Virus record (IMG/VR): IMGVR_UViG_3300025009_000054
Location: 62,001-126,000 of that record
Strand: one strand, 5' to 3'
Length of the DNA stretch: 64,000 bases
From: a virus
The notes under the pieces were generated by a model. It made no database searches. It had not been told where the DNA came from and saw only the letters and a list, made by a program, of their open reading frames with translations. Within the stretch, counting starts at the first letter, position 1. Each line of letters begins with the position of its first letter. Position numbers and translations under genes: made by a program. Of the stretch, positions 6,922 through 45,961 are shown piece by piece.

Positions 6922-7572
6922 TTATTTTTTATAGAGCAAGATATTCCAGTTATATTCTTTATGTAGATTTAGTCCATTATATTCAGCATCCATTAGTAGT
7001 GGGTGCGTTACGTCATATTCATTAATTCCACCATGTTTCTCAAACAGGATATCCCACCATTCACGTGGTTTATACGTGATATGCGTTGGATCGTCATCCT
7101 TATATTCAGGTGGTGGTGCATCGAACAACAAACTAGCATATACACGTCCACCTGGTTTAAGTATACGCATTATTTCACTGATCATCTTATCACATTGATC
7201 CTCAGGCACATGCTCAAATACCTGCGACGAATGGATAAAATCAAACGTGTCATCTTCAAATAGGCTTAGATTACTATCTTTGATGCACATTAATCTGTTT
7301 CTAAGGGCTCCATCAATAAGATTTTCATCAGATGTGGAATACGTTGATACGTCAACCCCATATGCATCGACGTTATTTCTTACACACGACAATACAAACG
7401 TGCCAAATGCGCAACCAAAATCTAGTACTATTTTACCACTTAGATTATAGACATTATCTATGCCGTAATAATAAGCGACTTGCCAATCACCATATGCCCT
7501 CATATCGTTCTTAGCTTTATCTACCGCCCACTCATCAAAATATTCAACTCCAAAACCTTGATATTTATTCAT
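6922..7572 (-). CDS. Class I SAM-dependent methyltransferase (type 11-like)
   Basis: The 216-aa protein has the glycine-rich SAM-binding loop VLDFGCAFGTF near residue 50, an acidic residue after strand 2 (AYGVDVS), and FDFIHSSQVFEHVPE at motif IV, followed by LKPGGRVYASL. This is the Methyltransf_11 layout. It overlaps by four bases with the next upstream methyltransferase and belongs to a sugar-modification cluster. A small-molecule or glycan substrate is likely, but the acceptor cannot be predicted. The start has GGAGG upstream. Confidence 0.85.
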   Translation of the reverse strand: MNKYQGFGVEYFDEWAVDKAKNDMRAYGDWQVAYYYGIDNVYNLSGKIVLDFGCAFGTFVLSCVRNNVDAYGVDVSTYSTSDENLIDGALRNRLMCIKDSNLSLFEDDTFDFIHSSQVFEHVPEDQCDKMISEIMRILKPGGRVYASLLFDAPPPEYKDDDPTHITYKPREWWDILFEKHGGINEYDVTHPLLMDAEYNGLNLHKEYNWNILLYKK

Positions 7573-8216
7573 ATTTCCTCCAAATTAGATTTTTTTATGA
7601 AGACTATACTCTTGTAGAAACTGACAGACTCTATAGTATTCCTCATATTATTAGTATTAGATGGTGGTGATACGCGCTGTGGTGCCGAGTTAGAATGTCT
7701 ATCTTTACTATTACCATAATCATTAACAACGTCAATAATATTGGCCGTATACTCTATAAAACTCTGTGGACCAACACCCCAACCATCCCAATATGACGTA
7801 TGTAAGTCTTCTACTACATATATACCACCTGGTTTCACGCTATCCCACAAGTCATTAAACGATGATATTTGGCTCTCCCACAAATGACATCCATCGTCTA
7901 TAATGACATCAAACTTGCCATACTTCGTCACTACATGATTAATAAAATTCTTATCGTTACTATCACCTATTTCAATAGATATTCTAGTATCACGATATAC
8001 CTCACATCTAGAGTCTATATCAATACCTACAATATCACCTAGTGGGAAATATTCCTGCCACATCCTCATGGACTGACCATGATCAACACCAATTTCTAGC
8101 AAGCTAATTGGTGATAACTCAAGATGGTTAAATTCCTTCTCATATGCCACCATATAATTATGCCCACCGGATGCCTTATCAGTACCATATTTCTGTGCGA
8201 TTTGGTCAAGTATCAT
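7569..8216 (-). CDS. SAM-dependent methyltransferase of the CmcI/sugar O-methyltransferase type
   Basis: The 215-aa protein opens with a short helical part containing KYGTDKASGGHNY. The SAM loop LLEIGVDHGQSMRMW follows, then GIDIDSR and the metal-binding-type motif FDVIIDDGCHLWESQ, then VKPGGIYVVEDLHTSYW. This arrangement is typical of MycE/CmcI-like methyltransferases that act on sugar hydroxyls of natural products or glycans. AGGAGG precedes the ATG. Its overlap with the downstream methyltransferase suggests coupled expression. The acceptor is unknown. It may decorate glycans built by the adjacent glycosyltransferases. Confidence 0.85.
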   Translation of the reverse strand: MILDQIAQKYGTDKASGGHNYMVAYEKEFNHLELSPISLLEIGVDHGQSMRMWQEYFPLGDIVGIDIDSRCEVYRDTRISIEIGDSNDKNFINHVVTKYGKFDVIIDDGCHLWESQISSFNDLWDSVKPGGIYVVEDLHTSYWDGWGVGPQSFIEYTANIIDVVNDYGNSKDRHSNSAPQRVSPPSNTNNMRNTIESVSFYKSIVFIKKSNLEEI

Positions 8217-8225
8217 GCTATCCTC

Positions 8226-9242
8226 CTAACTATCGACGATACACTTAACAGTATTCCATCTTTCGATGAATTTACTAGTGGCAAACTCAGTACCTACAAT
8301 ATTGAGTGCGTATTCCCTACAGTGATTATAAAATCCTCTGTCATCAAGGAGAATCTGATACGCCTTGACAGCTTTATCAATATCGAGCATTGGGTCAAAT
8401 GTCAGGTCTGGGAATAGCATATATTGGGTTTGCTGATGTATAGACCCTATTACTGGTATACCCATTGATGCGAGGTCTAGCGACCATCTTCCCCATGTAC
8501 CGAGTGAGTCCAAGTTGATTCCTATTGTACACCTACTGTATATTTCGTAGAACTTATCATAAGATGTGGTATCGTGTACCGTAACATTTTCAAACCCGTT
8601 ATCAGCCATAAAACTACTGACTGTATCGGGTATAGGTTTACGCGTAATAAGATTTACCTTGGTATCTGACTGCTTAGTAAGATATAAGTTACCTATAAAA
8701 TTTCTACTTAATGCCCTAAGTGCATCAGGTGGTACTCCATTAACTGCAACGATTGGAGTACTACCAAACTTAACATCTGCCGGTAGTCTATAGCGTCTAC
8801 TTACCTCTTCCCAGAATGGTATGCCTAAATATAGTACTGGCTTATCAGTTAGCATTTGATAGAATGGTCCAGATCTATCCACTATTGTACAGTATGCATC
8901 AAATGACTGCATTATCTTCATCAATAGATGACATTCTGGTATGAAATCTCTACGTAAGATATCCTGATATGCACCCTCAGCAAGGCCAATCACCTTAACC
9001 GTCGATGGTAACATTTCCCTAATACGTAGTATAGTTTCTAGATATGTTACATCAATATTTAAGTTTACTATTATATGTGAATACTGGCTGAGTATATCTA
9101 AATTATCAAAATGATTTCCACTTATCATATCACCATTTAAGATATACGGTATGCCAGCTACGGAATGCTCCATGGCACCGGGACCATCATATTTTAATAC
9201 GCATGGAGCATATACTATGACAGCAATCTTATCATTTTGCAT
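8226..9242 (-). CDS. Glycosyltransferase, GT-B fold (putative)
   Basis: The 338-aa protein looks like a two-Rossmann GT-B enzyme. The N-terminal half has IAVIVYAPCV and a run of alternating strands and helices. The C-terminal half has VNLITRKPI, FYEIYSRCTIGINLD and a nucleotide-sugar-site-like WGRWSLDLASMGIPVIGS, resembling the E-x7-E/GxPV region of GT4 enzymes without the second canonical Glu. The ATG at 9242 overlaps the preceding glycosyltransferase by 11 bases. It sits between a GT4-GT9 fusion and two methyltransferases, which supports a role in assembling or modifying a glycan. Donor and acceptor are unknown. Confidence 0.7.
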   Translation of the reverse strand: MQNDKIAVIVYAPCVLKYDGPGAMEHSVAGIPYILNGDMISGNHFDNLDILSQYSHIIVNLNIDVTYLETILRIREMLPSTVKVIGLAEGAYQDILRRDFIPECHLLMKIMQSFDAYCTIVDRSGPFYQMLTDKPVLYLGIPFWEEVSRRYRLPADVKFGSTPIVAVNGVPPDALRALSRNFIGNLYLTKQSDTKVNLITRKPIPDTVSSFMADNGFENVTVHDTTSYDKFYEIYSRCTIGINLDSLGTWGRWSLDLASMGIPVIGSIHQQTQYMLFPDLTFDPMLDIDKAVKAYQILLDDRGFYNHCREYALNIVGTEFATSKFIERWNTVKCIVDS

Positions 9243-11313
9243 CAATACTTAATACCTGCCTTACTTTTTCAACAATATCGGTAGGGCAGATCTCCATACA
9301 CGGAGACGTTTCTATACTACCATTCAATGGGCATCCTATATTAGCATTCCTCCAGCATGGAGAGCATTTCATAGGTGACTGAATGGGTACTGATTTATCA
9401 TATATACGAACCCGACTATCGGTTGGACCAAATAAACCAATACAACTCTTTCCAAGTGTACCAGCTATGTGAAGTGCCAACGTATCCGCACACACTACTA
9501 CGTCTACCACCGATATTAACGCTACAAATTCATCAACCCCACCTTCAAAGCATTGATTTGCACTGTTCAATGACAATGCCGATGATATAACATAGCAATC
9601 CTTACTTAACTCTTCAGCGATGCGATCAAATGAATGCGCTGGGTAATCCTTATATGACTCCGCAGATTTGACGCACAATAAAACTCTCTTCTTATTAGTT
9701 AATTTTGATAATTCAGAATCAGCGATCTTAACTAATTCCTCATTTGGGAATATATCAAGGGAATAGTCATCCATCTTAATGCCAAGTGCTTTACAATACG
9801 CGACTGGACGTGAAGTTGTTATATGTGGCAATTCAGACACTTCAGAATGTGCTGGAGCGGTGGATATATCACGGATAATATCGAACTTCATATAATTTAT
9901 TTGATTTGATGGTATGAGAGCATTTAAATACGGATTACCAGAAAGTAATAGGCTTACATTATTTACCATGCTATCACGTACCGATAGGTATACTTCATTG
10001 CCAGATTCATGCAAGCTGCGAATAGCAGGTGTTGTCGTAAGGATATCGCCAAGACCACCACTATTTTCAATAAGCAGCACTTTCTTACCGCCACCCTTTA
10101 TACTAGATACGCCACATCCATATGAACTAATAGCAGACTCTATAGTTTTATGCCACTCAGGTATCATATCTCTCCACATATAATTACTAGTAACGAATTC
10201 TCTACACTGTCGGCCAAGTTCTTTCCTCTCAGATTTTGTTTTAGAGCATAAATCATATATTTTCTTAGCCATATCTTCAACATCTATGATTGGTCTGAGT
10301 AAAGGTATAACTGGGTGTATAACTCTAGCATCTTTATGATTTATCTTTTGCCACTCAAACGGGTTTTGCTCTATCGTGCCAGACCAATGAGTAGAGATTG
10401 ATGGAACACCACATGCCATAGCTTCTGTATGAGGTAATCCCCATCCTTCTCCTAATGTAGAAAGTACATGAACATCGAGCGCACTATATACCATTGGCAT
10501 GTGAAGCGCAGATATCATATCGCCACGATGTATAAATTTTCCATCTATGGAAAGTTGTACAACACTATCTCTCATGTTGTACGCATCGACTATTTCACCA
10601 ATATCGAATCCAACCGGACCATGCCAATTGCAATGCATATATAGCACAGCTTCTGGTATTTCATCAACAACCATTCTCATAGCTTTGATGAGCGATGGAA
10701 AATCCTTACGTATCTGATTAACAGCAACCATACCAACGACTATATTATCATCTAATCCAAACCTATTAGAGTCGCATGGTTTAAAGAACTCGGTATCAAC
10801 TCCGTGTGGTATATATGATATTCGATCTGCTGCCCCAGGAACTGCCTTCTGAAAAATATCTCTAGACCACTTATTATATGTCACTGTAAAATCTTGTTTT
10901 GCAATGGTATCGCACCACGATTTGGGTATTGAATTATCCGGTGTTATCGAATCTAATGGTTGGTAAAAGATAATAGGGAATCTCCTATCAGCCATAAAAT
11001 TTGGATCCGTCATATATGACGTCATCCACGTATCAAGATTTACCACTAGAACATCGGGGTTTACCATTTGCAGCCATCCTGCTATACTCTGCTTACCAAA
11101 CGACCCAGGCTGTCCCAATGCAGGATATATGTGATACGGATACATAAGCGGATTCTGCTTGGAATACGGTGGCTGACCTATGCCCATACAATGTATTTCA
11201 TATTGTCCTGGGTACATATGATATAACCCAGCAAGCACATTTCTTGCTACTGTACCAAAACCAGTCGATCCCATAGGGGAATCGGAGAACCATGCTACTC
11301 TAATTCTACCCAT
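9232..11313 (-). CDS. Bifunctional glycosyltransferase: GT4 domain fused to GT9 (heptosyltransferase-like) domain
   Basis: The 693-aa protein has two glycosyltransferase modules. Residues 1-400 form a GT4 module: the N-terminus has WFSDSPMGSTGFG, and near residue 280 come LSTLGEGWGLPHTEAMACG and VPSIST, the usual nucleotide-sugar-binding region. From about residue 412 a second GT-B module starts with KVLLIENSGGLGDILTTTPA and later has VVVCADTLALHIAGTLGK and CIGLFGPTD, the hallmarks of GT9 heptosyltransferase-like enzymes. A Cys-rich C-terminus (CSPCWRNANIGC) could bind metal. The start overlaps the DHH gene by one base. Such fusions occur in phage and bacterial surface-glycan clusters. Targets could be virion proteins, DNA or host glycans. 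Confidence 0.88.
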   Translation of the reverse strand: MGRIRVAWFSDSPMGSTGFGTVARNVLAGLYHMYPGQYEIHCMGIGQPPYSKQNPLMYPYHIYPALGQPGSFGKQSIAGWLQMVNPDVLVVNLDTWMTSYMTDPNFMADRRFPIIFYQPLDSITPDNSIPKSWCDTIAKQDFTVTYNKWSRDIFQKAVPGAADRISYIPHGVDTEFFKPCDSNRFGLDDNIVVGMVAVNQIRKDFPSLIKAMRMVVDEIPEAVLYMHCNWHGPVGFDIGEIVDAYNMRDSVVQLSIDGKFIHRGDMISALHMPMVYSALDVHVLSTLGEGWGLPHTEAMACGVPSISTHWSGTIEQNPFEWQKINHKDARVIHPVIPLLRPIIDVEDMAKKIYDLCSKTKSERKELGRQCREFVTSNYMWRDMIPEWHKTIESAISSYGCGVSSIKGGGKKVLLIENSGGLGDILTTTPAIRSLHESGNEVYLSVRDSMVNNVSLLLSGNPYLNALIPSNQINYMKFDIIRDISTAPAHSEVSELPHITTSRPVAYCKALGIKMDDYSLDIFPNEELVKIADSELSKLTNKKRVLLCVKSAESYKDYPAHSFDRIAEELSKDCYVISSALSLNSANQCFEGGVDEFVALISVVDVVVCADTLALHIAGTLGKSCIGLFGPTDSRVRIYDKSVPIQSPMKCSPCWRNANIGCPLNGSIETSPCMEICPTDIVEKVRQVLSIDAK

Positions 11314-12227
11314 TACTTCTCCTTTTTAAATGGAAGCTCATTAATATCGAACCCGCTAGCACCCTTATGTCCGCCTCCACCATACTTCTTTGCAATCTTT
11401 TCAACATCGATCTTCATAGAATACAATGAGATTACGAATTTTTCACCATCATAGATAAACGTTATTGACATATCGTAGGTATCTGGATCAATACTGTTGA
11501 ATATTTCACTACCAACCTTGGCAGCATTTACTACTACGCACTTGTGGCCTTCCCAATTACATCTAAATGAGAACGCATCAACTAACTCTGCATTCTTATA
11601 CTTCTTAAATCTCTCGACTATACGACCATCACTATGGACTTTGCACATCATGTGTGGCGATAATACCATAGCCCATATGCTGCCATGTACCTGTTCCCCT
11701 ATCATAGGATTTGTGTCATATGATTCCATGCCAGAGAAGAAGAATCTGGTTTCATCACCATATTTCCAATCCCATACGTCACGATCACCTATGAGGAGTG
11801 TTGGTTTTGGTACGTCACTGACATACTTCTCGATATTCTCTCTTTGAAGCTCCGGTCCCTGCTCACGTATATCATCGCCAAGCAGATTAAAGTATATATA
11901 CGTAAGTACACACCCAGCAATTCCATCGATGCGCATACCAGGTATTCTCTGGTGAAAGCCCTTGTACTTATCTATTGACGTAATATGATGATCAATCCAT
12001 ATCACATCATCAGTGATAGCTAGAAGCTTATCCATATCCTCAGGTTCAAGGGAGAAATCTACTATTACAACCTTCTCATCTTTCTCTACCTTATCGAGAT
12101 ACTCATTGGATGGTATATTATAATTGGCTTTCAGGCACTCACATTCCATACCATACTTATATCGCACCCAGAACGCCGCACATCTACCATCTAGGTCATC
12201 ATGATATATACAACGCACTTTACTCAC
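11313..12227 (-). CDS. DHH family phosphoesterase (NrnA-like)
   Basis: The 304-aa protein has the DHH family motifs in order: HDDLDGRCAA near residue 9, IVDFSLE near residue 55, WIDHH near residue 77, and a C-terminal DHHA1 glycine box GGGGHKGASGF near residue 283. These residues bind two manganese ions and substrate in NrnA/RecJ-like enzymes. The compact length fits an oligoribonuclease or nanoRNase rather than full-length RecJ. It may recycle short oligonucleotides or degrade signalling dinucleotides such as pApA. That choice cannot be made from sequence. It starts with GTG after AAGGAGG. Confidence 0.88.
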   Translation of the reverse strand: MSKVRCIYHDDLDGRCAAFWVRYKYGMECECLKANYNIPSNEYLDKVEKDEKVVIVDFSLEPEDMDKLLAITDDVIWIDHHITSIDKYKGFHQRIPGMRIDGIAGCVLTYIYFNLLGDDIREQGPELQRENIEKYVSDVPKPTLLIGDRDVWDWKYGDETRFFFSGMESYDTNPMIGEQVHGSIWAMVLSPHMMCKVHSDGRIVERFKKYKNAELVDAFSFRCNWEGHKCVVVNAAKVGSEIFNSIDPDTYDMSITFIYDGEKFVISLYSMKIDVEKIAKKYGGGGHKGASGFDINELPFKKEK

Positions 12228-14345: not shown

Positions 14346-15239
14346 CTATTTCCCGCTTGATCCCCATCCATGACTACCGCGTTCGCTTTGATCTAGATCA
14401 TTCACTTGTACCATATGTACATCACACACTCTATGTATAATCAATTGTGCAATTCTTTCACCAGCCCTAATAGTCATTACTTCATTAGGTATCATGCTAC
14501 GTGCACATACAAAAAATTCACCTGAGAACCCTGCATCAATAACAGACTCTTGCACTAGTATGTTGCGTTTGGACGCACTCGACCTAGCTTTAATATTAAT
14601 CCAGTATCCGCTAGGGATCTGGATTTTTAATCCGGTTGGCACTACAGTAAATCCATCATAATTAAGTACTGTATCTTCGACAGCACAAATATCCCAGCCT
14701 GCATCATCTTTATATGTCTTGTTTGGGAGCCCATACTGCCTAGCTCTATCATCCATAACAACCTTGCATATTAAGCCGCTATCGTCATCATTATTGATAA
14801 TATTCCTAGATAGTATATCGATAGCTATACTAGTAAGTCGTGGGTCTATCGATGTAACGCCAAATTCGGCAAGTTTGGCGGTTGTTGTCATTCTCCATCC
14901 AGCAGCACTACTCTTAGTGGTACAATCCATGGGACCAGATAGATAGGCGAACTCTAAATCGCTCCAATCTTTACTATCTATATCTCTGAGTGATTTAATT
15001 ATATCAATGGCGTGGCCTAAACTATATACAATATGTGTCGCCTGAGACTCTGCTACTATCGACATTGGCCTACCAGTTTTCCATACAAGTATACGTGCTG
15101 GCACCCCAATTCTATGTGCATACTCAAGTTCTTGCGCCGTACCTATTGATAGATCATCTGACAGGAAGTTGAATATGCAATAATTCGACGCTTCCACATA
15201 TCCATTATTAATAGTGCATGCTAAACTTCCTCTGGACAT
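14346..15239 (-). CDS. dut: dUTPase fused to nucleoside deoxyribosyltransferase-like segments
   Basis: The last 140 residues are a trimeric dUTPase: DAGWDICA (motif 1), ARSSASKRN (motif 2), ESVIDAGFSGEF (motif 3), ERIAQLIIHR (motif 4) and RGSHGWGSSGK (motif 5, the flexible C-terminal P-loop-like arm). It would convert dUTP to dUMP for ThyX. The first 135 residues look like nucleoside 2-deoxyribosyltransferase pieces: DLSIGTAQELEYAHRIG near residue 30 resembles the second half of such enzymes, and AYLSGPMD...GWR near residue 100 resembles their first half, so the order appears permuted. The start is ATG after GAGGAGG. The next gene downstream is the zinc-ribbon/HNH gene. Confidence 0.85.
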   Translation of the reverse strand: MSRGSLACTINNGYVEASNYCIFNFLSDDLSIGTAQELEYAHRIGVPARILVWKTGRPMSIVAESQATHIVYSLGHAIDIIKSLRDIDSKDWSDLEFAYLSGPMDCTTKSSAAGWRMTTTAKLAEFGVTSIDPRLTSIAIDILSRNIINNDDDSGLICKVVMDDRARQYGLPNKTYKDDAGWDICAVEDTVLNYDGFTVVPTGLKIQIPSGYWINIKARSSASKRNILVQESVIDAGFSGEFFVCARSMIPNEVMTIRAGERIAQLIIHRVCDVHMVQVNDLDQSERGSHGWGSSGK

Positions 15240-15714: not shown

Positions 15715-16338
15715 CTATACAGTAATATTATCAAACATAACTGGTATGAGATTCTTCGCATCTGCAAGTAATGGGATCATAAGCTCTTGCATCTGTGGAT
15801 GCGCGGTGAGTGGCGTTCTCATATGGAATATATGTCTCCACTCTCTCCAGTTGGCAGTTACAGCAATCTCAGTTTTCACACAGGTGGGTAGGCAATTCCT
15901 CGCGATCTGTGGCTTAAATCCTTTTACATTAACGTAGTATTCGTACTCTCTCTGGTCAGCATGCCTTCCTTCAAGCCACACATTAAATGCTTCATCATCA
16001 CCACGTATTTCCTCAGGGCAGATTACCATAATGCCTGAGCTCTTATAATTACAGTACCTGGTACTCTCCTGAGCAAATGCAGCAAGTCTATGTCTAACCA
16101 ACTCATGTGATATGCCACGATCACATATAAATTTAACAGTCATCATACTATGTTCAAACATGGCCTCATGCTTTTCGCTCATTCTAGCACGAAGGAATCC
16201 CTCATATGAATCATCTGTAATTTTCGCTTCTGACTTGTAGCATATGCGGATGATTCGCTCCATATCTTTAGCCATTTCAACCGCATCCATGTGTGAGTAT
16301 GGGAACATAATTTTGTAGCTAGGCTGTATTATTTCCAT
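15715..16338 (-). CDS. thyX: FAD-dependent thymidylate synthase ThyX
   Basis: Makes dTMP from dUMP using FAD, NADPH and methylene-tetrahydrofolate. The 207-aa protein has the ThyX signature RHRLAAFAQESTRY near residue 82, matching RHRxxSxxxxSxRY with the catalytic Ser/Arg/Tyr at the end but Ala at the first Ser position. EHSMMTVKFICDRGISHELV precedes it, and ANWREWRHIFHMRT provides the C-terminal substrate-binding Arg and His. ATG at 16338 follows AGAGGAG. It lies between the ribonucleotide reductase and the dUTPase fusion, forming a dTTP supply line. Confidence 0.95.
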   Translation of the reverse strand: MEIIQPSYKIMFPYSHMDAVEMAKDMERIIRICYKSEAKITDDSYEGFLRARMSEKHEAMFEHSMMTVKFICDRGISHELVRHRLAAFAQESTRYCNYKSSGIMVICPEEIRGDDEAFNVWLEGRHADQREYEYYVNVKGFKPQIARNCLPTCVKTEIAVTANWREWRHIFHMRTPLTAHPQMQELMIPLLADAKNLIPVMFDNITV

Positions 16339-16385: not shown

Positions 16386-18644
16386 CTATCCGCAACGGGA
16401 CCATGAACATGCCGGATTAGAACACTTATAACATCCCTCACTATATTTTATCATCGACCCACAATCGGCACACAGCTCGACCTTGGGACCACCAAATAAA
16501 TCTAGCGTATGTCTAACGTTCTGATCCGTCGCACGTTGAATTGCTTTTCCAATAGCATCGGCACACGATAGAACGTGTGTATTCTCGTCAGCTACGCATC
16601 CTAAGCACCGTATTCCAAGAAGCTGTTCGAGGACCGTATCGACACTCAAACCTGCTCTGAGTGCATTACTGATAACACGCGACAGGCTTTCAGCCAAGGA
16701 ATGGCATCCGCTAGCCCTTCCCGTATTACACATGACCTCAAGCACACGCCCATCAGTATCCTTATTTACAGTAATATATATACTGCCACAGTTTCCAACC
16801 TTAAATACCGACGTGCTACCAGATAGAAGCTGTGGCCTAGTAGTAGATCTTATATCCTCCGGTGTATGGGTTTTCCCACCAGCAGACATTGGTTGATTCT
16901 CACGGCAGTTATTTCTATATACTGTCATTCCTTTACACCCAGTCTCATATGCCAACTTTATAGCACCAGCGACATCTTCAACTGTGGAGTTGTTATTCAT
17001 ATTAATGGTTTTGCTAATGGATAGATCTATATGCTCCTGAAACGCTGCTTGCATTTTGATATGATCAGACCAATGTATATCGTGCGCACATACAAATAGC
17101 CTCTTCAGGGACGACGGGAGTCCTGTAATATTTTGAATTGATCCATCATGTTTTTTTGCAATCTCACTAATTAAATCATTCGACCATATACCAGCACGTT
17201 TTGATTCATCGACAAACATGGGGTGAACTTCACTCATCTCAGTGCCATCAAGTACTGTCCTGGTATAAGCCACTGAGTACATCGGCTCTATACCGCCAGT
17301 GACACCTGCAATTATTGATAACGACCCAGTCGGTGCTACACACGTCCTAGTAGCATTACGGATAGCGTACTTACCATCGTATATACTGCCACTCCACGCT
17401 GGAAATGCACCACGTTCATTAGCCATATAAATAGATTCTTCGGTAGCAATATTTGAGATAGCCTGCATTACCATCTTACCAGTATCACGAGCTTCTTCGG
17501 AATCATATCTCAGTCCAAGTTTGAGTAGCATTTCTGCCCAGCCCATAACGCCTAACCCAATCTTGCGTGTGAGCAGCGTAGCATCTTTGATTTCTGGAAG
17601 TGGGTAACAATTGACATCTATTACATTGTCGAGGAATCTTACTGCAGTTCTAACAGTAGATTCCAATATATCCATGTCTATTTTTGGCATATCATCATTA
17701 GTGACCATTAAAGATAAGTTGATAGACCCCAAATTGCATGACTCGTTGGTTAACTGTGGCACTTCTGCACAGGGATTGCAGCCCTCTATCTCACCAAGAT
17801 GTGGAGTTGGATTATATCTATTAATATTACCCCTGAATAGTATTCCAGGCTCTCCAGTTGCATGCGCATTATTAACGAGTGCATCGAATAATTGAACGGC
17901 ACTAATTGTGGTTCTATTTCCAGTTGTAGGACACACAAGGTCATATTTACTATTGGTATTGACGGCATCCATAAACGCATCATCCACTAATACGCTTATA
18001 TTGAAATTTTTGAGTTTACTTAGATTACTCTTACACTTAATAAACTCAAAAATATCTGGATGGCCTATGGGCATGAGAGCCATATTGGCACCCATGCGCG
18101 CACTACCTTGTTGCACAGCATCCGTACAAGCATTGATAGCTTCTATAAACGATATTGGTCCACCGGCCTTACCATTTGTCGATGATACCAGAGCTCCCTT
18201 TGGCCTAATATGACCAAAATTAGCTCCAACCCCTCCACCCGACTTATGAATTAAGGCAAATTGCTTGATCGTATCAAATATACCTTCCATCGAATCTGGT
18301 AATGATAGCGTAAAACATGCCGCGAGTTGTCCATTATCTCGACCGGCATTGATTAGAGTAGGTGTGTTTGGAAGAAAATGCATATTACTCATTAGCGTGT
18401 AGAAGTCAATGGCCTGGCTTATCACATCTTCCATGGATGACCCATATTGCTTATCAGCCATAGCAATAGCAGCAGCTACACGTGCAAACATATCACGCGG
18501 ACTTTCTATGCAGTTACCAGCACTATCTTTACGTAGATATCTCTTAGTAAGTAGTGTAGTAGCATTGTCGCTCAACACAGGATCTAGATCTACCTGAGCG
18601 TGTATCTCAGCAATAATATCATAGGTGTTAAATTCGATAGGCAC
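16386..18644 (-). CDS. nrdJ: Adenosylcobalamin-dependent ribonucleoside-diphosphate reductase (class II)
   Basis: Reduces ribonucleotides to deoxyribonucleotides using vitamin B12. The 752-aa protein has FLPNTPTLINAG, GQLAACFTLSLPDSM, IHKSGGGVGANFGHIRP, then NPCAEVP near residue 291 with the N-x-C-x-E catalytic triad, followed by NESCNLGSINLS and the barrel-closing ATRTCVAPTGSLS. The C-terminus holds CLGC plus a zinc ribbon (CADCGSM...CYKCSNPAC). Class II enzymes work with or without oxygen, which suits a host of uncertain lifestyle. The start is GTG after GGAGG. It abuts the PurB gene, so purine and deoxynucleotide supply are co-transcribed. Confidence 0.95.
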   Translation of the reverse strand: MPIEFNTYDIIAEIHAQVDLDPVLSDNATTLLTKRYLRKDSAGNCIESPRDMFARVAAAIAMADKQYGSSMEDVISQAIDFYTLMSNMHFLPNTPTLINAGRDNGQLAACFTLSLPDSMEGIFDTIKQFALIHKSGGGVGANFGHIRPKGALVSSTNGKAGGPISFIEAINACTDAVQQGSARMGANMALMPIGHPDIFEFIKCKSNLSKLKNFNISVLVDDAFMDAVNTNSKYDLVCPTTGNRTTISAVQLFDALVNNAHATGEPGILFRGNINRYNPTPHLGEIEGCNPCAEVPQLTNESCNLGSINLSLMVTNDDMPKIDMDILESTVRTAVRFLDNVIDVNCYPLPEIKDATLLTRKIGLGVMGWAEMLLKLGLRYDSEEARDTGKMVMQAISNIATEESIYMANERGAFPAWSGSIYDGKYAIRNATRTCVAPTGSLSIIAGVTGGIEPMYSVAYTRTVLDGTEMSEVHPMFVDESKRAGIWSNDLISEIAKKHDGSIQNITGLPSSLKRLFVCAHDIHWSDHIKMQAAFQEHIDLSISKTINMNNNSTVEDVAGAIKLAYETGCKGMTVYRNNCRENQPMSAGGKTHTPEDIRSTTRPQLLSGSTSVFKVGNCGSIYITVNKDTDGRVLEVMCNTGRASGCHSLAESLSRVISNALRAGLSVDTVLEQLLGIRCLGCVADENTHVLSCADAIGKAIQRATDQNVRHTLDLFGGPKVELCADCGSMIKYSEGCYKCSNPACSWSRCG

Positions 18645-18646
18645 TA

Positions 18647-19900
18647 TTATCTTCCTCCAGGGTTTATTGCTCTTTTGATTCTCATAAGCGAGAACCTGTC
18701 ATATCTTATATCGAGATTATCACGATTAAACCGCATACTCTCGACCTTGGCATTATCACACCAGCCACATTCTATCGTAGACGCAGCATAATTACGACCA
18801 CTACTGTATGTGTTGCCATTAGACATATGACTACATGCTATGATATGTGATGCGAATGCTGGTATATCATCATCGGTTCCAGATGCCTTACATATGTTCT
18901 GCATCATTTTACCCGTATCAACCCCAAGCGACGCTATCACACTATACATTGATTCAATCATGTAGAGAGTTAAATTATACGCTTCGGGATAGATCATTCT
19001 CTCATTTGCAGAATTTGTTAAATCCCGCTCGTGCCATGTTGGGATGTTCTCCATCGCAACAACCACGTATGATCTGACCATCCTAGCGAGGGAACATATA
19101 CGTTCACATAATCCTGGATTTTTACCAGACTTATGTTTCATTGACGACGACCCAGCCGCAGATTCCTTCGACACCTCATATACCTCATCAATTTCCGGAC
19201 GAGCGAGGTTTCTTATCTCTGTTGCAATACGCTCTAGGGTGCTAGCTATAAGTGCTAGCTGACATATATACTTAGCATATACCGATCTATCGACGATCTG
19301 CGACGACGCTGCCGCTGGATATAGTCCCAGTATATAGCACGCTTTCCTCTCGACATCTGGATCGAGTACATTATACGACCCAACTGGTCCAGACATCTTA
19401 CCATAATACTCGTTAGCATTGAGATCATTGATGTGTCTTGTTATATCCCATATCCAGCTAGCCAATTTGCTAGAAAATTTCATTGGTTCTGCCCACTGTC
19501 CATGCGTCCTACCAATAATTATAGCACCAGAATTATCTTTAGCACACTTCTCTATGGCATTTCTAAATTCGACCAGTGAAGACATTATCTGTGTACCACT
19601 ACGCATACACATTAGCGACATCGATGTATCCATAACATCTGATGCCGCTAGTCCATAGTATACTGGAACGCATTCTGGATATTTATCCTCTACCCATGAG
19701 ATGAAACCTATCATTTCATGAACATATTCATTGATAAATGCGTTGATAACTGGTAAGTCACCACCTAATATCTCTGGTATGCATTTTTTGGTAGACAAGC
19801 CATGCGATTTAATTACAGCATTCATAACCTGTGCCCAGGTTTGGTATTTGGATAGATCACTCCAAATACCATTACATTTGGTATCGTATCGGCTAGTCAT
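18647..19900 (-). CDS. purB: Adenylosuccinate lyase (PurB-like)
   Basis: A 417-aa member of the fumarase/aspartase superfamily. IIIGRTHGQWAEPM near residue 130 matches the conserved T-H-G-Q box with the general-acid His. SSSMKHKSGKNP near residue 255 matches the SSxMPxKxNP signature loop, with a two-residue insertion and Pro replaced. The middle consists of long helices as in the family's helical bundle. Adenylosuccinate lyase removes fumarate from adenylosuccinate. In Z-genome phages the same activity, normally from the host, converts dSMP (the PurZ product) to dZMP. A phage-encoded copy alongside a PurZ-like gene is therefore notable. ATG follows GGAGG, one base after a short spacer from the DUF1599 gene. 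Confidence 0.88.
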   Translation of the reverse strand: MTSRYDTKCNGIWSDLSKYQTWAQVMNAVIKSHGLSTKKCIPEILGGDLPVINAFINEYVHEMIGFISWVEDKYPECVPVYYGLAASDVMDTSMSLMCMRSGTQIMSSLVEFRNAIEKCAKDNSGAIIIGRTHGQWAEPMKFSSKLASWIWDITRHINDLNANEYYGKMSGPVGSYNVLDPDVERKACYILGLYPAAASSQIVDRSVYAKYICQLALIASTLERIATEIRNLARPEIDEVYEVSKESAAGSSSMKHKSGKNPGLCERICSLARMVRSYVVVAMENIPTWHERDLTNSANERMIYPEAYNLTLYMIESMYSVIASLGVDTGKMMQNICKASGTDDDIPAFASHIIACSHMSNGNTYSSGRNYAASTIECGWCDNAKVESMRFNRDNLDIRYDRFSLMRIKRAINPGGR

Positions 19901-19902
19901 TA

Positions 19903-20748
19903 TTAGCCCTCCACACGCACTAACATCTTAATATCGGTAATACCCTTAACACCTTCTAAATAAGCAAACCCATCATTTATTGACATTAATCGATATCTAG
20001 TAGTACCATGCAACATACGAACTACATCTCCATCATGCAACTCTACACCATGCGCGTCATCATTTTTACCTGGTGTCACTGGCACGTTACTGATTATAGG
20101 AACGTTAGTACTCCTAAGCAGAGTTGATATACCATCTTCCTCAATGCGACCCCACAAACCGCGCAGTACCAGTATCGATATAATCGCATAGTTCGACATG
20201 TCGCCCATGGTTTCAATTACGCTCTCTCCACCATCATCGAGTTTGTTCTGAAGAATATTGCGCATGCGGCATGTCTTATCATGCATTCGGCTGTGAATGC
20301 CAGTAACACCAACGTCAGATAGGTTCTCATTACTGTATTTTCGACCACGCTCAACCATAATGGATAAGTTGCGATCACACATTTTCTTAACCTGCTGATC
20401 TACCTGCGCTGCATCCATATAGATTAGATTGTCCTCATCGAATAATCCTGACGATGCTACTAGCTGTCCAACAACTCCATATACCGCGATTCGCTTAAAT
20501 ATGTCTATGGCAGCGCAGCAAGCTTCACGACTAATCTCACTACCAGTATATACACACGGCTTTAGGTTGTCAATATCACCCATACCGACGAGCACTCCAG
20601 CGTCTAACCATAACATCTGACACGATGCCAGTATTCCATCTACCCCTATCCTGCTAACGACTGACATTGAACGTGGTGTATCGGTTAGCATGTTGATCGC
20701 AGCAGCCCCAATACTGTCTACTTCTGTACTAAGTATCGATATTTTCAC
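19903..20748 (-). CDS. DUF1599 (nucleotide-modification-associated) domain protein
   Basis: The 281-aa protein starts at a GTG at 20748 with GGAGG six bases upstream. Near residue 130 comes RGRKYSNENLSDVG, then GIHSRMHDKTCRMRN and ESVIETMGDMSNYAII. This layout matches DUF1599, named nucleotide modification associated domain 1 because it clusters with genes for modified DNA bases. The N-terminal 110 residues have no family I recognise. The last 60 residues (LHDGDVVRM-LH then DGFAYLEG) look like a small SH3/KOW-like barrel. Position between the primase-helicase and PurB supports a role in nucleotide pools or base modification. Confidence 0.72.
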   Translation of the reverse strand: MKISILSTEVDSIGAAAINMLTDTPRSMSVVSRIGVDGILASCQMLWLDAGVLVGMGDIDNLKPCVYTGSEISREACCAAIDIFKRIAVYGVVGQLVASSGLFDEDNLIYMDAAQVDQQVKKMCDRNLSIMVERGRKYSNENLSDVGVTGIHSRMHDKTCRMRNILQNKLDDGGESVIETMGDMSNYAIISILVLRGLWGRIEEDGISTLLRSTNVPIISNVPVTPGKNDDAHGVELHDGDVVRMLHGTTRYRLMSINDGFAYLEGVKGITDIKMLVRVEG

Positions 20749-20749
20749 A

Positions 20750-23446
20750 TTACGCCTCCACACTCTCTTGACTACCAGATGGCATCCCACCACCTAGCGT
20801 CGGCTGACCATCGGATGGCTCAAACCACGAAGTCGTTTCGCCATCCCATACTGCATGGACGATACCTTCTCTGCCACCTCTATTCTTACTAATATTAATT
20901 ATATGTCTGCCATACTTAAATCCAATCTCATTTATGATCTTCTCAGGTTTCTTCTGTGGAATCATGAATGTATCGCAGTCAGCCCATATCTTCTTCGATC
21001 CACCAACATGCTCGGCACCTATCGGATTAAATTCTCTCTTTTGATCCATCATGCCAATAGCTGATGCCGATAACTGTGCGGCACACACAGCAGCTATATC
21101 TAAATTTCCTGCCATATTTTTAATACCGGTGGATACATCTCTATACTCTGCCCATAGTTCACCTGAGGAATGCGACTCGCTTCCGAGTAGCTGTATGTAA
21201 TCTATAAAGACGGCAGATATATCGTATTTCAGTTTATACAAATGGGTGATAGCTGAAACAGCCTGAATTGATGCACCGTACTTTGTTTCAATAAATATGG
21301 GCATTTGGCTTATGGCATATGCAGCATCTTTAACCATATCGAGTTCTAACTGAGTTAGATACCCGTACTGCATGGCGTTTATGGTCACACGCTGTCCAAA
21401 CATTATCCATATGAGCATTGAGTATAACCTAGTCATAACGTCACCATCTTCCATCTCCATGTTGACGAAGAGGACAGGTGCACCCTGTAATGCCATGACA
21501 AGTGCTATCTTTAGCATAAGCGCACTCTTGCCTTGTCCAGGCAATGCTCCTATGACGATATACTTCTGTTTCCTGATACCGCCAAGTGTAAGCGATAATG
21601 CTGGGAATTGTGGTCTAAGGTCAAATCCTGGTAACGTGCCTGGATTTGCCACCTGGTTTATGATGAACCTCGTAGTCCTATCGACCAGAGCAATCCTATT
21701 GTGTTCTCCATCACCATCAGATGACCCTCTAACAGCGATGGCAACTACGTCACCGCTTATCTTAGATACTATTTCATCAGATGATATCGACGCGTCAATA
21801 CACATCGACATTGTACCAGTCATTTTTTCATATAGGGTACGTCTCTTATACCTATCGATAATTATATCTAAGCACGACTGCCAATCCTCATACGACGCAC
21901 TAAATACAGCATCGACATTCGTTTGAGATACCAAATTGCCTTTACCAGACGCAACTATATTAGAGTGTACGACATGGGCAGTAGGTACTCCGGCCTTGGC
22001 ACGTTCTTCTACGATCGCGCTAAATATGAATTTATTTGAGAATACATAGAAGCAGTCCTCTGTCAGCGACGATACACACTGTGCATATATCTGCTCATTA
22101 CCAGCCATAGCCGATAATATTTTATTTTCGGACGTCGCATCAGATAATACTGACGTATCATATATTCCAGACGATACGCATGCAGTAATTGTTTGCTGAT
22201 CGATTCCTACGGCATCAGATATGCATTTACACGCTATTGCTTTGTTAAGTGGACTCAATGTATGGACTCTAGAGCGTACCTTGTTTATGAGCATATGTAC
22301 ATCAAGCACGTTGTCTACTACTGTATCAAGCATAGACTGTTCTATATAGTATTGAGCAAAATGCGTTGCATTGTTGAGCTTATCATCAATTGACGCAATA
22401 CCATGAGTATTTATGACGTCATCTGGGTCTAGTCCTGGTGGCAATGTTACGATATCTAATATCATGCCATCATCTATACTAAGCTGTGATACTAAATTAT
22501 ATAGACCTTTTCTGCCACCAGCATCACCATCCCACATTAGCGAAATTCTAGATGCGCCATATTGTTTAGCAGTCATAACCTGTTCTGGCGATAGGTTGAC
22601 GTTCATAACTCCAACTGTAGATAGCCTATTACATGAATGCATGCGCATCACATCGAAAAATCCCTCTACAGCAATGAGCCGACCACTCTCTCTTATATGC
22701 TTTCGAGCTCTATGCATACCATATAACGGTGATGCAATCGGGTATACAGGAGAATTCCTACTGGTACCAGCCCATTTATCCTTTGATGGCGTCATAGCTC
22801 TACCACGAAAGAATACTATATCACCCTCAGCATCATGTATCGGGAATATCAACCTCCCACCGAATAGATTATCGTTTGTGAGCTCTAACCTATCAATGGT
22901 AATATCATCAACACCAGCACTACGCATGGCTACGATAAGGTCATGGGCATGCTCCGTATATCCTAAATTGAAGTCGTCCTGTGTCTGAGACGGAATCTGC
23001 CTCACATCAGTAACATACTCAACTATCTTTTTATTCTGAAGGTACATCTGGTGCATTACGTCAGCGGCCATACCATTGATTCCGCACAAATAGTCATGCC
23101 ACTGTTCCTCTATGGTAGGCTCTCTAAGATAATCTTTGATATCTATATTAAAATCGACACTAAATTGTTCAACAGCTTCTATGAACGTCAATCCTAGATA
23201 TGCTTGAATAAATCGTATAACATCTTTTCCATGCTTATCGGAACAGCTACCGAAGCATTTCCATATTTGTTTACGATCGCTTACTACGAAACTAGGGTCA
23301 TTATCAGCGTGGAATGGACAACAGCACCTACTTACGGATCCTGCCTTCTCTAAGACTATATATCTACCAATTGCATCTGATAGTGGAACAGCATTTGATA
23401 TGAACTGGATTAGACCTTGTGGGTCACGAACTCTTAATTTTCCCAT
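20750..23446 (-). CDS. Bifunctional primase-helicase (DnaG-type primase fused to DnaB-type helicase)
   Basis: Primes and unwinds DNA at the replication fork. The 898-aa protein begins with a CHC2-like zinc motif (CPFH near residue 43 and CFGSC near residue 64). The Toprim core has LIAVEGFFDVMRMHS near residue 255 and SLMWDGDAGGRKG near residue 300. Near residue 635 the RecA-like helicase starts with Walker A GALPGQGKSALM, then VLFVNMEMED and Walker B-type VFIDYIQLLG, as in DnaB/T7 gp4. A Gly/Ser/Glu tail ends it. Such fusions serve both roles in one chain in T7-like systems. Here it would pair with the DnaE-type polymerase and the ssDNA-binding protein. Confidence 0.93.
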   Translation of the reverse strand: MGKLRVRDPQGLIQFISNAVPLSDAIGRYIVLEKAGSVSRCCCPFHADNDPSFVVSDRKQIWKCFGSCSDKHGKDVIRFIQAYLGLTFIEAVEQFSVDFNIDIKDYLREPTIEEQWHDYLCGINGMAADVMHQMYLQNKKIVEYVTDVRQIPSQTQDDFNLGYTEHAHDLIVAMRSAGVDDITIDRLELTNDNLFGGRLIFPIHDAEGDIVFFRGRAMTPSKDKWAGTSRNSPVYPIASPLYGMHRARKHIRESGRLIAVEGFFDVMRMHSCNRLSTVGVMNVNLSPEQVMTAKQYGASRISLMWDGDAGGRKGLYNLVSQLSIDDGMILDIVTLPPGLDPDDVINTHGIASIDDKLNNATHFAQYYIEQSMLDTVVDNVLDVHMLINKVRSRVHTLSPLNKAIACKCISDAVGIDQQTITACVSSGIYDTSVLSDATSENKILSAMAGNEQIYAQCVSSLTEDCFYVFSNKFIFSAIVEERAKAGVPTAHVVHSNIVASGKGNLVSQTNVDAVFSASYEDWQSCLDIIIDRYKRRTLYEKMTGTMSMCIDASISSDEIVSKISGDVVAIAVRGSSDGDGEHNRIALVDRTTRFIINQVANPGTLPGFDLRPQFPALSLTLGGIRKQKYIVIGALPGQGKSALMLKIALVMALQGAPVLFVNMEMEDGDVMTRLYSMLIWIMFGQRVTINAMQYGYLTQLELDMVKDAAYAISQMPIFIETKYGASIQAVSAITHLYKLKYDISAVFIDYIQLLGSESHSSGELWAEYRDVSTGIKNMAGNLDIAAVCAAQLSASAIGMMDQKREFNPIGAEHVGGSKKIWADCDTFMIPQKKPEKIINEIGFKYGRHIINISKNRGGREGIVHAVWDGETTSWFEPSDGQPTLGGGMPSGSQESVEA

Positions 23447-26149: not shown

Positions 26150-27421
26150 TTATCTCCCTCCATCTGTGAACTCAATCAGGTATTTTGGATTTATCTGATC
26201 AGTTCTATACACAATCCACTCATTGTTCATTACTCCAGACTTATTTGCTTTCGCAAAAGTGGAGTCATGCCCACTCTTTGGTAGATTCTCGCCATAGTTA
26301 TTTGGTACGTAATATTTGCCCATTGCCACATCACAAAGGAACATATAGCATGAGCTACTTCTAGTACCAGACCAATACCCATCTGAGTAATTCAACGCTT
26401 TGGTTGATTGGTCTGATGTATATATGCCATTGCCAAACATACGCCCAGTACAATATGGAGCATTACTTGGTGGGATAATAAAACCTTTTTGCATAATACT
26501 TAATAGATTTCCAGACCTAGTACCATGCCATCCATCCCATATATTAGGTAGATTTGCTCCATAATTGGCAAAAGCATTCGACATGGATGCTATCTCAACC
26601 TTAAATACCTTATGTGGACGAAGTCTAGAGCTTGAATGCATACTTTGTTGGGTAGATACATAGAGCTTTGTTATACGATCGATAACACTCTTGTCAGTAA
26701 CTAAACTTAATGATACCTCAAATAATTTTGGCTCTTCATTAGGTTCATTACCACTAGATACTACCATCTGAACAGATGACTCAAGAGAATCTAAAATACT
26801 ATTTTGCTTTTGAATAGCATCAATATTTGGATATAGGTACTTAAGATTGGGTTTCCTCATACCTATATTCTGTGGGATAAGTTGTAGGTACTCGTTAACA
26901 GAATCTATGAACGAAGGTGATTCATAATCATTGACTATCACATATTTACTTATACTATCAAGTAATAATCTGGCACATGAAATAGCCTCTGCCGTAACTA
27001 CTCCAAGCGGTGTAGAATATGTGCCACGGCTTTCATCGTACTGTATTGTGGTATTGGAGAGGATGTTATGTCGATTTACACTGACAAGATACGAAACCAA
27101 ATCTCTGGTTTCGTTATTATCTGTTTGTATCTGTCCTGTTGCCACTTGCGCCAGTCTTCCTGACGTAACTGTTTTACCGCTCTCCGTAGAGGTACCCCGT
27201 ATAGTTTGCGTCGCCTTGTAACCATGGGATCCCTTCTCAATGACCTTTTGGTCATAGAAACCTTTGCCATGGCCAATGACTTTTCTTTGGCCACTATATC
27301 CGACACGGCCCCAGTGAGTTTCTACTGCACCGTCGTCATATAAATAAATAGACCAAAACTTATTATTGTTTTCACTAACATCTGCCTTATTAAAATGACG
27401 CTCTTCCACTATATTTGCCAT
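26150..27421 (-). CDS. WGR-domain poly(ADP-ribose) polymerase (PARP-like ADP-ribosyltransferase)
   Basis: The 423-aa protein joins an N-terminal WGR domain to a PARP catalytic domain. THWGRVGYSG near residue 36 and KGFYDQKV are WGR hallmarks; in PARP1 this domain binds DNA and relays activation. Near residue 297 WHGTRSGNLLSIMQKG supplies the catalytic His of the H-Y-E triad. GRMFGNGIYTSD and ALNYSDGYW near residue 345 supply the Tyr, and MNNEWIVYR near residue 403 supplies the catalytic Glu. All three triad residues are present, so activity is plausible. The helical domain between WGR and catalytic core is short. Targets could be host proteins or DNA. The gene lies between MazG and a hypothetical gene. 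Confidence 0.88.
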   Translation of the reverse strand: MANIVEERHFNKADVSENNNKFWSIYLYDDGAVETHWGRVGYSGQRKVIGHGKGFYDQKVIEKGSHGYKATQTIRGTSTESGKTVTSGRLAQVATGQIQTDNNETRDLVSYLVSVNRHNILSNTTIQYDESRGTYSTPLGVVTAEAISCARLLLDSISKYVIVNDYESPSFIDSVNEYLQLIPQNIGMRKPNLKYLYPNIDAIQKQNSILDSLESSVQMVVSSGNEPNEEPKLFEVSLSLVTDKSVIDRITKLYVSTQQSMHSSSRLRPHKVFKVEIASMSNAFANYGANLPNIWDGWHGTRSGNLLSIMQKGFIIPPSNAPYCTGRMFGNGIYTSDQSTKALNYSDGYWSGTRSSSCYMFLCDVAMGKYYVPNNYGENLPKSGHDSTFAKANKSGVMNNEWIVYRTDQINPKYLIEFTDGGR

Positions 27422-36093: not shown

Positions 36094-37296
36094 TCAGTAC
36101 TTGCTTTGATAGGCCGGTTCGAAGTCCCTCTTATATCCAGGCTTCGATGATGATTCAGGCGATAGTATGCCGGATTTGAATGCAAACTCTCTAAGTTTAC
36201 CTGGATGCATAGTGATTATATGTTCTGGGCGTGGACCCGTACTTAGCCACCCAATAGAATCAAATAAATCATATTCTGCAGCGAATTTGGCCACCCATTC
36301 TTTACTAACCTGGGACAGACCTTCCCAAGCATTTTTACCATAGTCAATCGCGGCGATATAATCTATGAACGTGACCATTATCGATCCTGGTCGATTAATA
36401 GCAAGGGCTTTTCTAAACAATTTAGGACTAATCTCACCAACTCTTCTAACTCTCTTCGTAACAGTCGTCATTTCAATAACAGGCTTAGACGATCCACTAC
36501 GAGTCTGAATTTCTTCCCACGTGAGTTCCTGAACATTCTCGTCTTCATACCCAAATGGTCCACTGTTGCCAGCAACCCTAATTGGATATGTTCTCATAAC
36601 ACCATATATACTACGTACGGACATTGGTGATAGTCCAGCTTCTGCAAGCCAGTTTGCTGCGTTTGTATCTCTGGACGTAGTTTTTGGATATAAACCATGG
36701 TACATCGATAAAGCCATTCCCTGAGTTCCTTCGAGCATAACGGGAAATCCATTGTTTACCATATTATTGAGTATCATGCATGTATCGCCGATGTAGGGTT
36801 TAAGATAACTCACATCTTTGGCTAAGGTCACATCACCCTGCCTTTTAATCCTATCAATGAGAGCCGCACCACACCCTTCACGTGTACTACCAATAGCTTC
36901 GAACAGATCTTTACTACCATCTTTTCCATGCTCAGCATCAATATGTTTCTGCTCAATCAGAATGGCATTTGGATCAATGACGAGTCTACCATCATCCCAT
37001 ACCTTTTCTTCCTTCAGCCAACCGATTTCCCGATCTAGTACGGTTGGAATAATCATAGCACCAGCACCAATTACGAGCTGTGCTTTTGGTGCCGCTATAG
37101 ACCCGCATGGAATGGTTTGAAAAGCAAGCTTCTTCTTTCCATCTTTACTATAGACATAATGGCCAGCATTCGGCGATCCTGTACGCACTAAAGCACCATT
37201 ATTATATTGCCCAGCAATATGTTCACACAATTTTCCTTTTGCTTCAGAACCAAATGCGAGTCCGACGACGATATCTACGCACCTATTAGTGATCAT
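36094..37296 (-). CDS. purZ: PurZ-type adenylosuccinate synthetase homologue (2-aminoadenylosuccinate synthetase candidate)
   Basis: The 400-aa protein belongs to the PurA/PurZ family. GLAFGSEAKGK at residues 12-22 replaces the family's GDEGKG loop, with Ser17 at the position of PurA's catalytic Asp13. The NAGH box (residues 43-46) keeps the catalytic His of PurA. MLEGTQGMALSMYHGLYP and TTSRDTNAAN give the mid-domain nucleotide sites, and ITMHPGKLREF is near the C-terminus. PurZ joins dGMP and Asp with ATP to form dSMP, an intermediate of 2-aminoadenine DNA. Asp to Ser at this position is the published PurZ hallmark. A PurA-like role is not excluded. Start with GGAGG upstream. Confidence 0.83.
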   Translation of the reverse strand: MITNRCVDIVVGLAFGSEAKGKLCEHIAGQYNNGALVRTGSPNAGHYVYSKDGKKKLAFQTIPCGSIAAPKAQLVIGAGAMIIPTVLDREIGWLKEEKVWDDGRLVIDPNAILIEQKHIDAEHGKDGSKDLFEAIGSTREGCGAALIDRIKRQGDVTLAKDVSYLKPYIGDTCMILNNMVNNGFPVMLEGTQGMALSMYHGLYPKTTSRDTNAANWLAEAGLSPMSVRSIYGVMRTYPIRVAGNSGPFGYEDENVQELTWEEIQTRSGSSKPVIEMTTVTKRVRRVGEISPKLFRKALAINRPGSIMVTFIDYIAAIDYGKNAWEGLSQVSKEWVAKFAAEYDLFDSIGWLSTGPRPEHIITMHPGKLREFAFKSGILSPESSSKPGYKRDFEPAYQSKY

Positions 37297-43850: not shown

Positions 43851-43880
43851 TGTATTATCCTAATCTAATTTTCTATATGG

Positions 43881-45713: not shown

Positions 45714-45961
45714 TATGGACCACACACCTCTCCACTATTGCCACAGATCGCTATGCCACAGATCGCTATGCCAGTACCGGTACCAGGCAATATATCCACT
45801 GGGATTGGTACAAAAAATAATTGTGAATTGATAGCCGTAATATCATCATTATGAGATTGACTAATACTAGTAGTAGAATCAGTATCAAGCGACACGGATT
45901 TATTTACGATATCTATCATACTATCTATGCGTCTTTTTTCATATATTTTAAAGATACGCAT
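45713..45961 (-). CDS. Small protein (82 aa), paralogue of the next gene's N-terminus
   Basis: ATG at 45961 after a GGGAAG leader. It begins [15 protein letters not shown] and contains a Ser/Asp/Thr-rich middle, then [12 protein letters not shown] and [11 protein letters not shown], the product of a 15-base tandem duplication. The start resembles the upstream 54-aa gene (MRQYKIYEKK), suggesting duplication of a small gene. Function unknown, probably linked to fibre assembly by position. Confidence 0.55.
45741..45770. repeat. 15-base perfect tandem duplication
   Basis: CCACAGATCGCTATG occurs twice in a row (45741-45755 and 45756-45770), giving a repeated GIAICG in the 82-aa protein. It keeps the frame. 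Confidence 0.85.

Follow-up and report, generated by a model that had tools for sequence, protein, structure and literature searches.

A putative DmtZ-DutZ fusion of a large phage with the halves of its nucleoside deoxyribosyltransferase-like domain in swapped order

The open reading frame at 14346..15239 on the minus strand of the window (the whole 64,000-nucleotide stretch of DNA analysed here, positions 62001-126000 of a virus record of 142,704 bases) probably encodes a DmtZ-DutZ-like fusion in which the DmtZ domain, of the nucleoside deoxyribosyltransferase (NDT) fold, is circularly permuted, and it is the single case found. Sequence comparison confirmed the swapped order of two NDT-like halves ahead of a dUTPase. 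The permuted DmtZ-like domain and the DutZ-like dUTPase lie in one predicted protein of 297 amino acids with an ATG start, and the frame stays open for three further codons upstream, giving at most 300 amino acids. The original prediction had regarded such a permutation with a nucleotide enzyme as unusual; the joining of the two enzymes is not unusual in such phages, being the DmtZ-DutZ of phages with 2-aminoadenine ('Z') DNA published in PMC12884076. Both the fusion and its role have thus been described before, and the novelty lies in the arrangement of the halves. Because the order of the fold parts was tested and differs, the ORF is set apart from an ordinary DmtZ.

DmtZ is described as an NDT-like dAMP hydrolase/transferase which also passes the dAMP sugar-phosphate to the Z base, and DutZ as a dUTPase-like diphosphatase that yields monophosphates from dATP, dGTP and dUTP (PMC12884076, Nucleic Acids Res., February 2026). 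Among PurZ0 genomes dutZ is present in 98/98 and dmtZ in 85, and the two are fused in 77 of these 85 (PMC12884076). The string 'permut' is absent from the text in which PMC12884076 describes DmtZ-DutZ, as far as that text was available, and a search of the literature for circular permutation paired with deoxyribosyltransferase returned PMC3710099 and PMC8306585; no permuted NDT was recognised in the text covered, the permutation in PMC3710099 being that of HEPN domains.

The dUTPase domain occupies residues 156-297 (14346..14774, minus strand) and was assigned by Pfam, TIGR00576, motifs and a tree. As had been predicted, it is a complete dUTPase at the C-terminal end: the matches begin at residue 166 or 171 and run to 297 (Pfam PF00692, E 3.9e-22; TIGR00576, 3.6e-27), and the motifs DAGWD, ARSS, VIDAGFSG and RGSHGWGSSG can be read in the ORF. 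In the dUTPase tree a branch with support of 99/98 unites the window protein with 32/32 rows from PurZ phages and one of the 15 rows without PurZ; that one row nearly duplicates a PurZ row, and the other 14 fall outside, so that the domain belongs to the clade of PurZ-phage (DutZ) dUTPases. The branch of the window dUTPase is long and its exact position within the 99/98 clade is unsure. Its tentative neighbours (88/74) are the unfused dUTPases of three PurZ-bearing phages, L083, L093 and L072, and in those of L083 and L093 a long insert separates the dUTPase motifs.

The motifs named in the original prediction are all present in the N-terminal region, with that of the C-terminal half first: the D-SIGT-EL-A pattern lies in LSIGTAQELEYA (residues 30-41), YLSGPMD at residues 99-105 and WR at 116-117. 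The region assigned to the NDT C-terminal half, residues 1-92 (14964..15239, minus strand), would comprise alpha2-beta3-alpha3-beta4 and onward to alpha5, and that assigned to the N-terminal half, residues 95-145 (14805..14957, minus strand), would comprise beta1-alpha1-beta2 and the helix that follows; both assignments were made with hhalign and MAFFT. When the single window sequence was compared by hhalign with 20 canonical NDT (DmtZ) domains, only two alignments were returned and these do not overlap; query residues 10-51 align to template 65-106 (score 21.7, ungapped) and residues 97-133 to template 6-46 (17.6), and the full 297 amino acids gave the same two. The summed score of 39.3 was reached by 0/250 shuffles and 0/141 real phage ORFs, the top of these 391 controls being 29.7. 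Taken singly each score is modest, as that of the C-half was reached by 2/250 shuffles and 0/141 phage ORFs and that of the N-half by 0/250 shuffles and 2/141 phage ORFs. The predicted C-before-N order of the NDT halves was therefore borne out at the level of sequence, by two matches in reversed order with a sum above all 391 controls.

HMMER half-profiles gave a similar picture for the match itself. The summed score of the ORF was reached by 0/5000 shuffles and ranks first among the 104 open stretches of at least 100 codons in the window. The best local HMMER match of the C-half is at residues 43-65, in another register that does not contain the catalytic Glu; the register containing Glu37 was the choice of both hhalign and MAFFT. 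In a rotation scan the natural and the rotated sequence scored about equally, at 5.9 bits, the best of 2000 shuffles (1394 reported) reaching 5.3; the two scores are alike because local scores add either way, so the scan supports the match and not the order. The permuted domain is broken within the loop that leads from the beta2 Pro to the alpha2 Asn, two positions which in relatives are 17-21 residues apart.

Library profiles did not see this part of the protein. Residues 1-155 had no Pfam or PHROG match in hmmscan in either natural or rotated order, and PF05014 did not match the window protein, a profile which matches the canonical domains in only 8/16. An NDT profile run against the whole record returned nothing at E values up to 10, the ORF itself included, and likewise no second NDT gene in the record was visible to this profile, which misses the permuted domain too. 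No N-half was seen by eye in the frames upstream of the ORF.

The active site of the DmtZ of Gordonia phage Ghobes is formed by Tyr6, Asn77 and Glu103, while Asp12 and Pro57 also matter and a lid role has been proposed for Trp124 (PMC12884076). The equivalents in the window protein are Asn11 for Asn77 and Glu37 for Glu103 in the C-half, and Tyr99 for Tyr6, Asp105 for Asp12 and Pro133 for Pro57 in the N-half. When the full window protein was aligned in MAFFT with fragments of the C-half, the Asn and Glu columns fell on N11 and E37 in 12/12 alignments, where the Asn column also accepts Arg (present in one row, L057), and with fragments of the N-half Y99, D105 and P133 were matched in 12/12. The Tyr-to-Asp spacing (Y-x5-D) is 6 in 18/18 relatives and in the window protein, and the Asn-to-Glu spacing is 26 in 17/18 relatives and in the window protein. 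The catalytic letters alone are weak evidence because shuffled window sequences matched all of them in 6/60 cases for the N-half and 5/60 for the C-half. Two residues are singled out for DmtZ, a triad Asn that takes the place of Asp and the Asp of position 12 (PMC12884076), and the window protein shares both. No Trp is found at the window position matching the lid Trp124, which follows beta4, in an alignment that is not fixed past residue 53.

The most serious alternative, and still an unlikely one, is that a partial duplication left two decayed NDT remnants in the N-terminal region and that the dUTPase alone works. A circular permutation usually arises when a sequence is duplicated in tandem and the outer halves are then lost, which would fit such remnants too, as do the failure of any library HMM to see the NDT part, a divergence far beyond that of canonical DmtZ domains, and a lid Trp that could not be placed. 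However, the five active-site letters compared, together with their spacing, are kept across both halves, which decay would not favour, and each half is present once while the other halves leave no trace in the hhalign comparison of the 297 amino acids. A natural circular permutation of the NDT/DmtZ domain that still works, within the DmtZ-DutZ of a large, probable Z-DNA phage with a PurB-like lyase, is the reading that we favour, if with some reserve.

Predicted structures were of low confidence. AlphaFold2 gave a pLDDT of 31 for the whole protein from its single sequence, and a mean pLDDT of 46.6 with a pTM of 0.50 for residues 1-165 with 30 further rows. Joint alignments of N-half and C-half fragments often misplaced one of the two sets, and the alignment used for the latter model was chosen out of many trials since both half sets were well placed in it. 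As the alignment was built to place the halves, the topology of the model is not independent of them. The elements of the C-half in this weak model are a helix at 6-17, a strand at 20-26, a helix at 32-43, strands at 48-53 and 60-65 and a helix at 74-83, and those of the N-half are a strand at 98-101, a helix at 109-125, a strand at 128-131 and a helix at 133-146. This order is the one expected from a rotated NDT fold, in a model whose confidence is too low for the agreement to count as proof. Foldseek searches with this model found nothing that reached E 0.001, all matches lying above 0.05. In a second look the best structural match was 3imk (Z 6.0), and residues 57-145 of 4jen aligned to model residues 1-126 (Z 4.2), both under the tool's stated level of meaning.

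The weak matches to 3imk and to a DprA-like viral fragment, and the ability of shuffles to match the catalytic letters of one half might suggest that residues 1-155 form another Rossmann-like domain, for example one like SLOG/DprA, which carries NDT motifs by chance. We consider this improbable. Combined, the two halves outscore every control in both hhalign and HMMER; entries of the NDT family (7o62, 4jen, viral BlsM-like and NDT) recur among the weak fold matches, though the alignment of the model was NDT-derived; and the domain is joined to a dUTPase of the DutZ clade, a type that in PurZ phages often has an NDT fused to it (PMC12884076).

The same architecture was then sought among relatives. 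Against annotated phages, tblastn returned 693 records, with the best similarity in the dUTPase part and none covering 80% of the query. Near the top were gp69 of Streptomyces phage Hiyaa and Korravirus proteins of about 300 amino acids from Arthrobacter phages, whose translations show a canonical NDT-like domain (YLAxPID first, GxPxE later) followed by the dUTPase, while in the Gordonia phages Ghobes and Sapo the NDT-like protein and the dUTPase are encoded by separate, close genes. These relatives were aligned, and scanning IMG/VR with the alignment yielded 80 loci out of 352 relatives. An open extension of at least 60 residues upstream of the dUTPase match was found in 31/80 loci, of which 21 are NDT-like by reading of the sequences, all in canonical order and many being near-copies from Korravirus. 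The fusion part of the predicted architecture is therefore shared, by 21 loci among the 80, and the permuted order was seen in 0/21; none of the 80 loci from the 352 relatives holds a permuted NDT-dUTPase fusion. In 18/18 aligned relatives the order is linear, N-half then C-half, whereas in the window protein the C-half (10-51) precedes the N-half (97-133).

Searches with the full protein against viral contigs and genome contigs gave no relative. Sister phages were also sought with other proteins of the record; the primase-helicase, PurZ and PurB queries found none, the ThyX query reached 30 loci with PurZ or an NDT fusion in 0, and the ribonucleotide reductase query reached two loci at 36%. 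That metagenome assembly created this order by joining parts of one or two genes into a chimera is very improbable: there is only one record and a second copy was not found in viral or genome contigs, but the frame of 297 codons is uninterrupted, the halves are joined in frame and neither is repeated.

A setting of base modification had been proposed for this protein from the start, and the surrounding genes and the DutZ-clade position of the dUTPase (99/98) support it. A PurZ-like 2-aminoadenylosuccinate synthetase is encoded at 36094..37296 on the minus strand (phrog_1211, 1.5e-67), and an alignment with E. coli PurA and eight phage sequences placed a Ser at E. coli PurA Asp13, a replacement which marks phage PurZ (PMC12884076). 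It is labelled 'PurZ-like' because its score with the PurZ profile NF038379 (1.6e-63, 214.7 bits) is below the cut-off of 300; its nearest rows are PurZ0, and it falls clearly into neither the PurZ0 nor the PurZ subgroup. Owing to the homology of PurA, phrog_1211 is also matched in 14/14 bacteria and archaea used as controls. A PurB-like adenylosuccinate lyase (18647..19900, minus strand) matches TIGR00928 (1.1e-71, 242 bits, under the cut-off of 326) and PF00206 (1.1e-28). Relatives of this lyase occur in 33/50,697 phage records, including Hiyaavirus and Gordonia phages, and in 5/11 canonical NDT/dUTPase records (ten fusions and Ghobes); this search covered 13 records, the other two being the ribonucleotide reductase relatives, which had no match. 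Between the lyase and the fusion lie a class II (B12) ribonucleotide reductase (16386..18644, minus strand; TIGR02504 NrdJ_Z, 2.8e-193) and a ThyX thymidylate synthase (15715..16338, minus strand; PF02511, 1.8e-36; TIGR02170).

Of the records tested for PurZ, 10/10 that hold a canonical NDT-dUTPase fusion were positive; they represent 10 of the 21 fusion loci, most of the others being near-copies. Where a close dUTPase stands unfused, PurZ was found in 8/10 and 14/25 of the tested records (22/35), and it was found in 0/30 records reached via ThyX; the absences are soft because many of these records are fragments. PurZ phages usually have DpoZ, and no DpoZ-type PolA (PF00476) or PolB was found in the 142.7-kb record, which is possibly incomplete.

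Other genes on the minus strand of the window were also noted. The product of 19903-20793, which adjoins the PurB-like gene, weakly matches DUF1599 (nucleotide modification associated domain 1; PF07659, E 0.0036). The region 6922-12227 holds a cluster of two methyltransferase-like proteins, one glycosyltransferase-like protein and a DHH phosphoesterase. A PARP-like protein at 26150-27421 has WGR (PF05406, 3.3e-08), weak PARP regulatory (PF02877, 1.1e-04) and catalytic (PF00644, 2.6e-26) domains, and two tail-fibre-like proteins at 42498-45725 match many collagen-like and tail-fibre families.

The closest known system is the DmtZ-DutZ of Arthrobacter phage Wayne, likewise a PurZ phage, in which an NDT-like domain is N-terminal to a dUTPase-like domain and the equivalents of Tyr, Asp, Pro, Asn and Glu have the same spacing inside each half. 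Unlike in Wayne, the NDT halves of the window protein are swapped and the lid Trp is not placed; the sequences are very remote, with tblastn similarity mainly over the dUTPase, and the record is of 142.7 kb as against 44.4 kb. The same pair of activities is expected as for Ghobes DmtZ and DutZ, which are two genes with the canonical NDT order in a genome that also carries PurZ and PurB-like genes. Hiyaa gp69 (Hiyaavirus) is likewise an NDT-dUTPase fusion from a genome with PurZ and PurB-like genes, but its NDT order is canonical. For DNPH1/Rcl, MilB, BcmB and bacterial NDTs we know of no dUTPase partner. They share with the window protein the expected fold and the Glu/Tyr chemistry, and mostly carry Asp in place of the Asn common to DmtZ and the window protein (PMC12884076).

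By analogy with these proteins, the permuted protein most likely works like an ordinary DmtZ. The polypeptide would begin in the beta2-alpha2 loop of the usual domain and continue into the Glu-bearing half, from which a short linker (about residues 85-95) would lead to the Tyr-bearing half and then to the dUTPase. Both halves may co-fold into one NDT-like active site composed of Tyr99, Asp105, Asn11, Glu37 and Pro133. From the activities of Wayne and Ghobes, the conserved residues and the gene context, the protein would lower dATP and convert dAMP to adenine and deoxyribose-5-phosphate or, as in Wayne and Ghobes, when free Z base is present, to dZMP instead. Competition from dATP would thus be removed and dZTP supplied for a genome containing 2-aminoadenine, which PurZ would make together with the PurB-like lyase that the phage itself encodes. 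We infer Z-DNA for this phage, with 2-aminoadenine probably standing in for adenine.

The DmtZ-DutZ/PurZ set is thereby extended to a 142.7-kb phage record with its own PurB-like lyase adjoining the ribonucleotide reductase. If the permutation is true, the Tyr half would stand beside the dUTPase, the lid Trp would have been lost or moved, and the balance between hydrolysis and transfer could change. A permuted DmtZ would be a natural test of how the halves assemble and of which parts set hydrolysis against transfer, and permuted NDTs may be useful for the enzymatic making of nucleosides.
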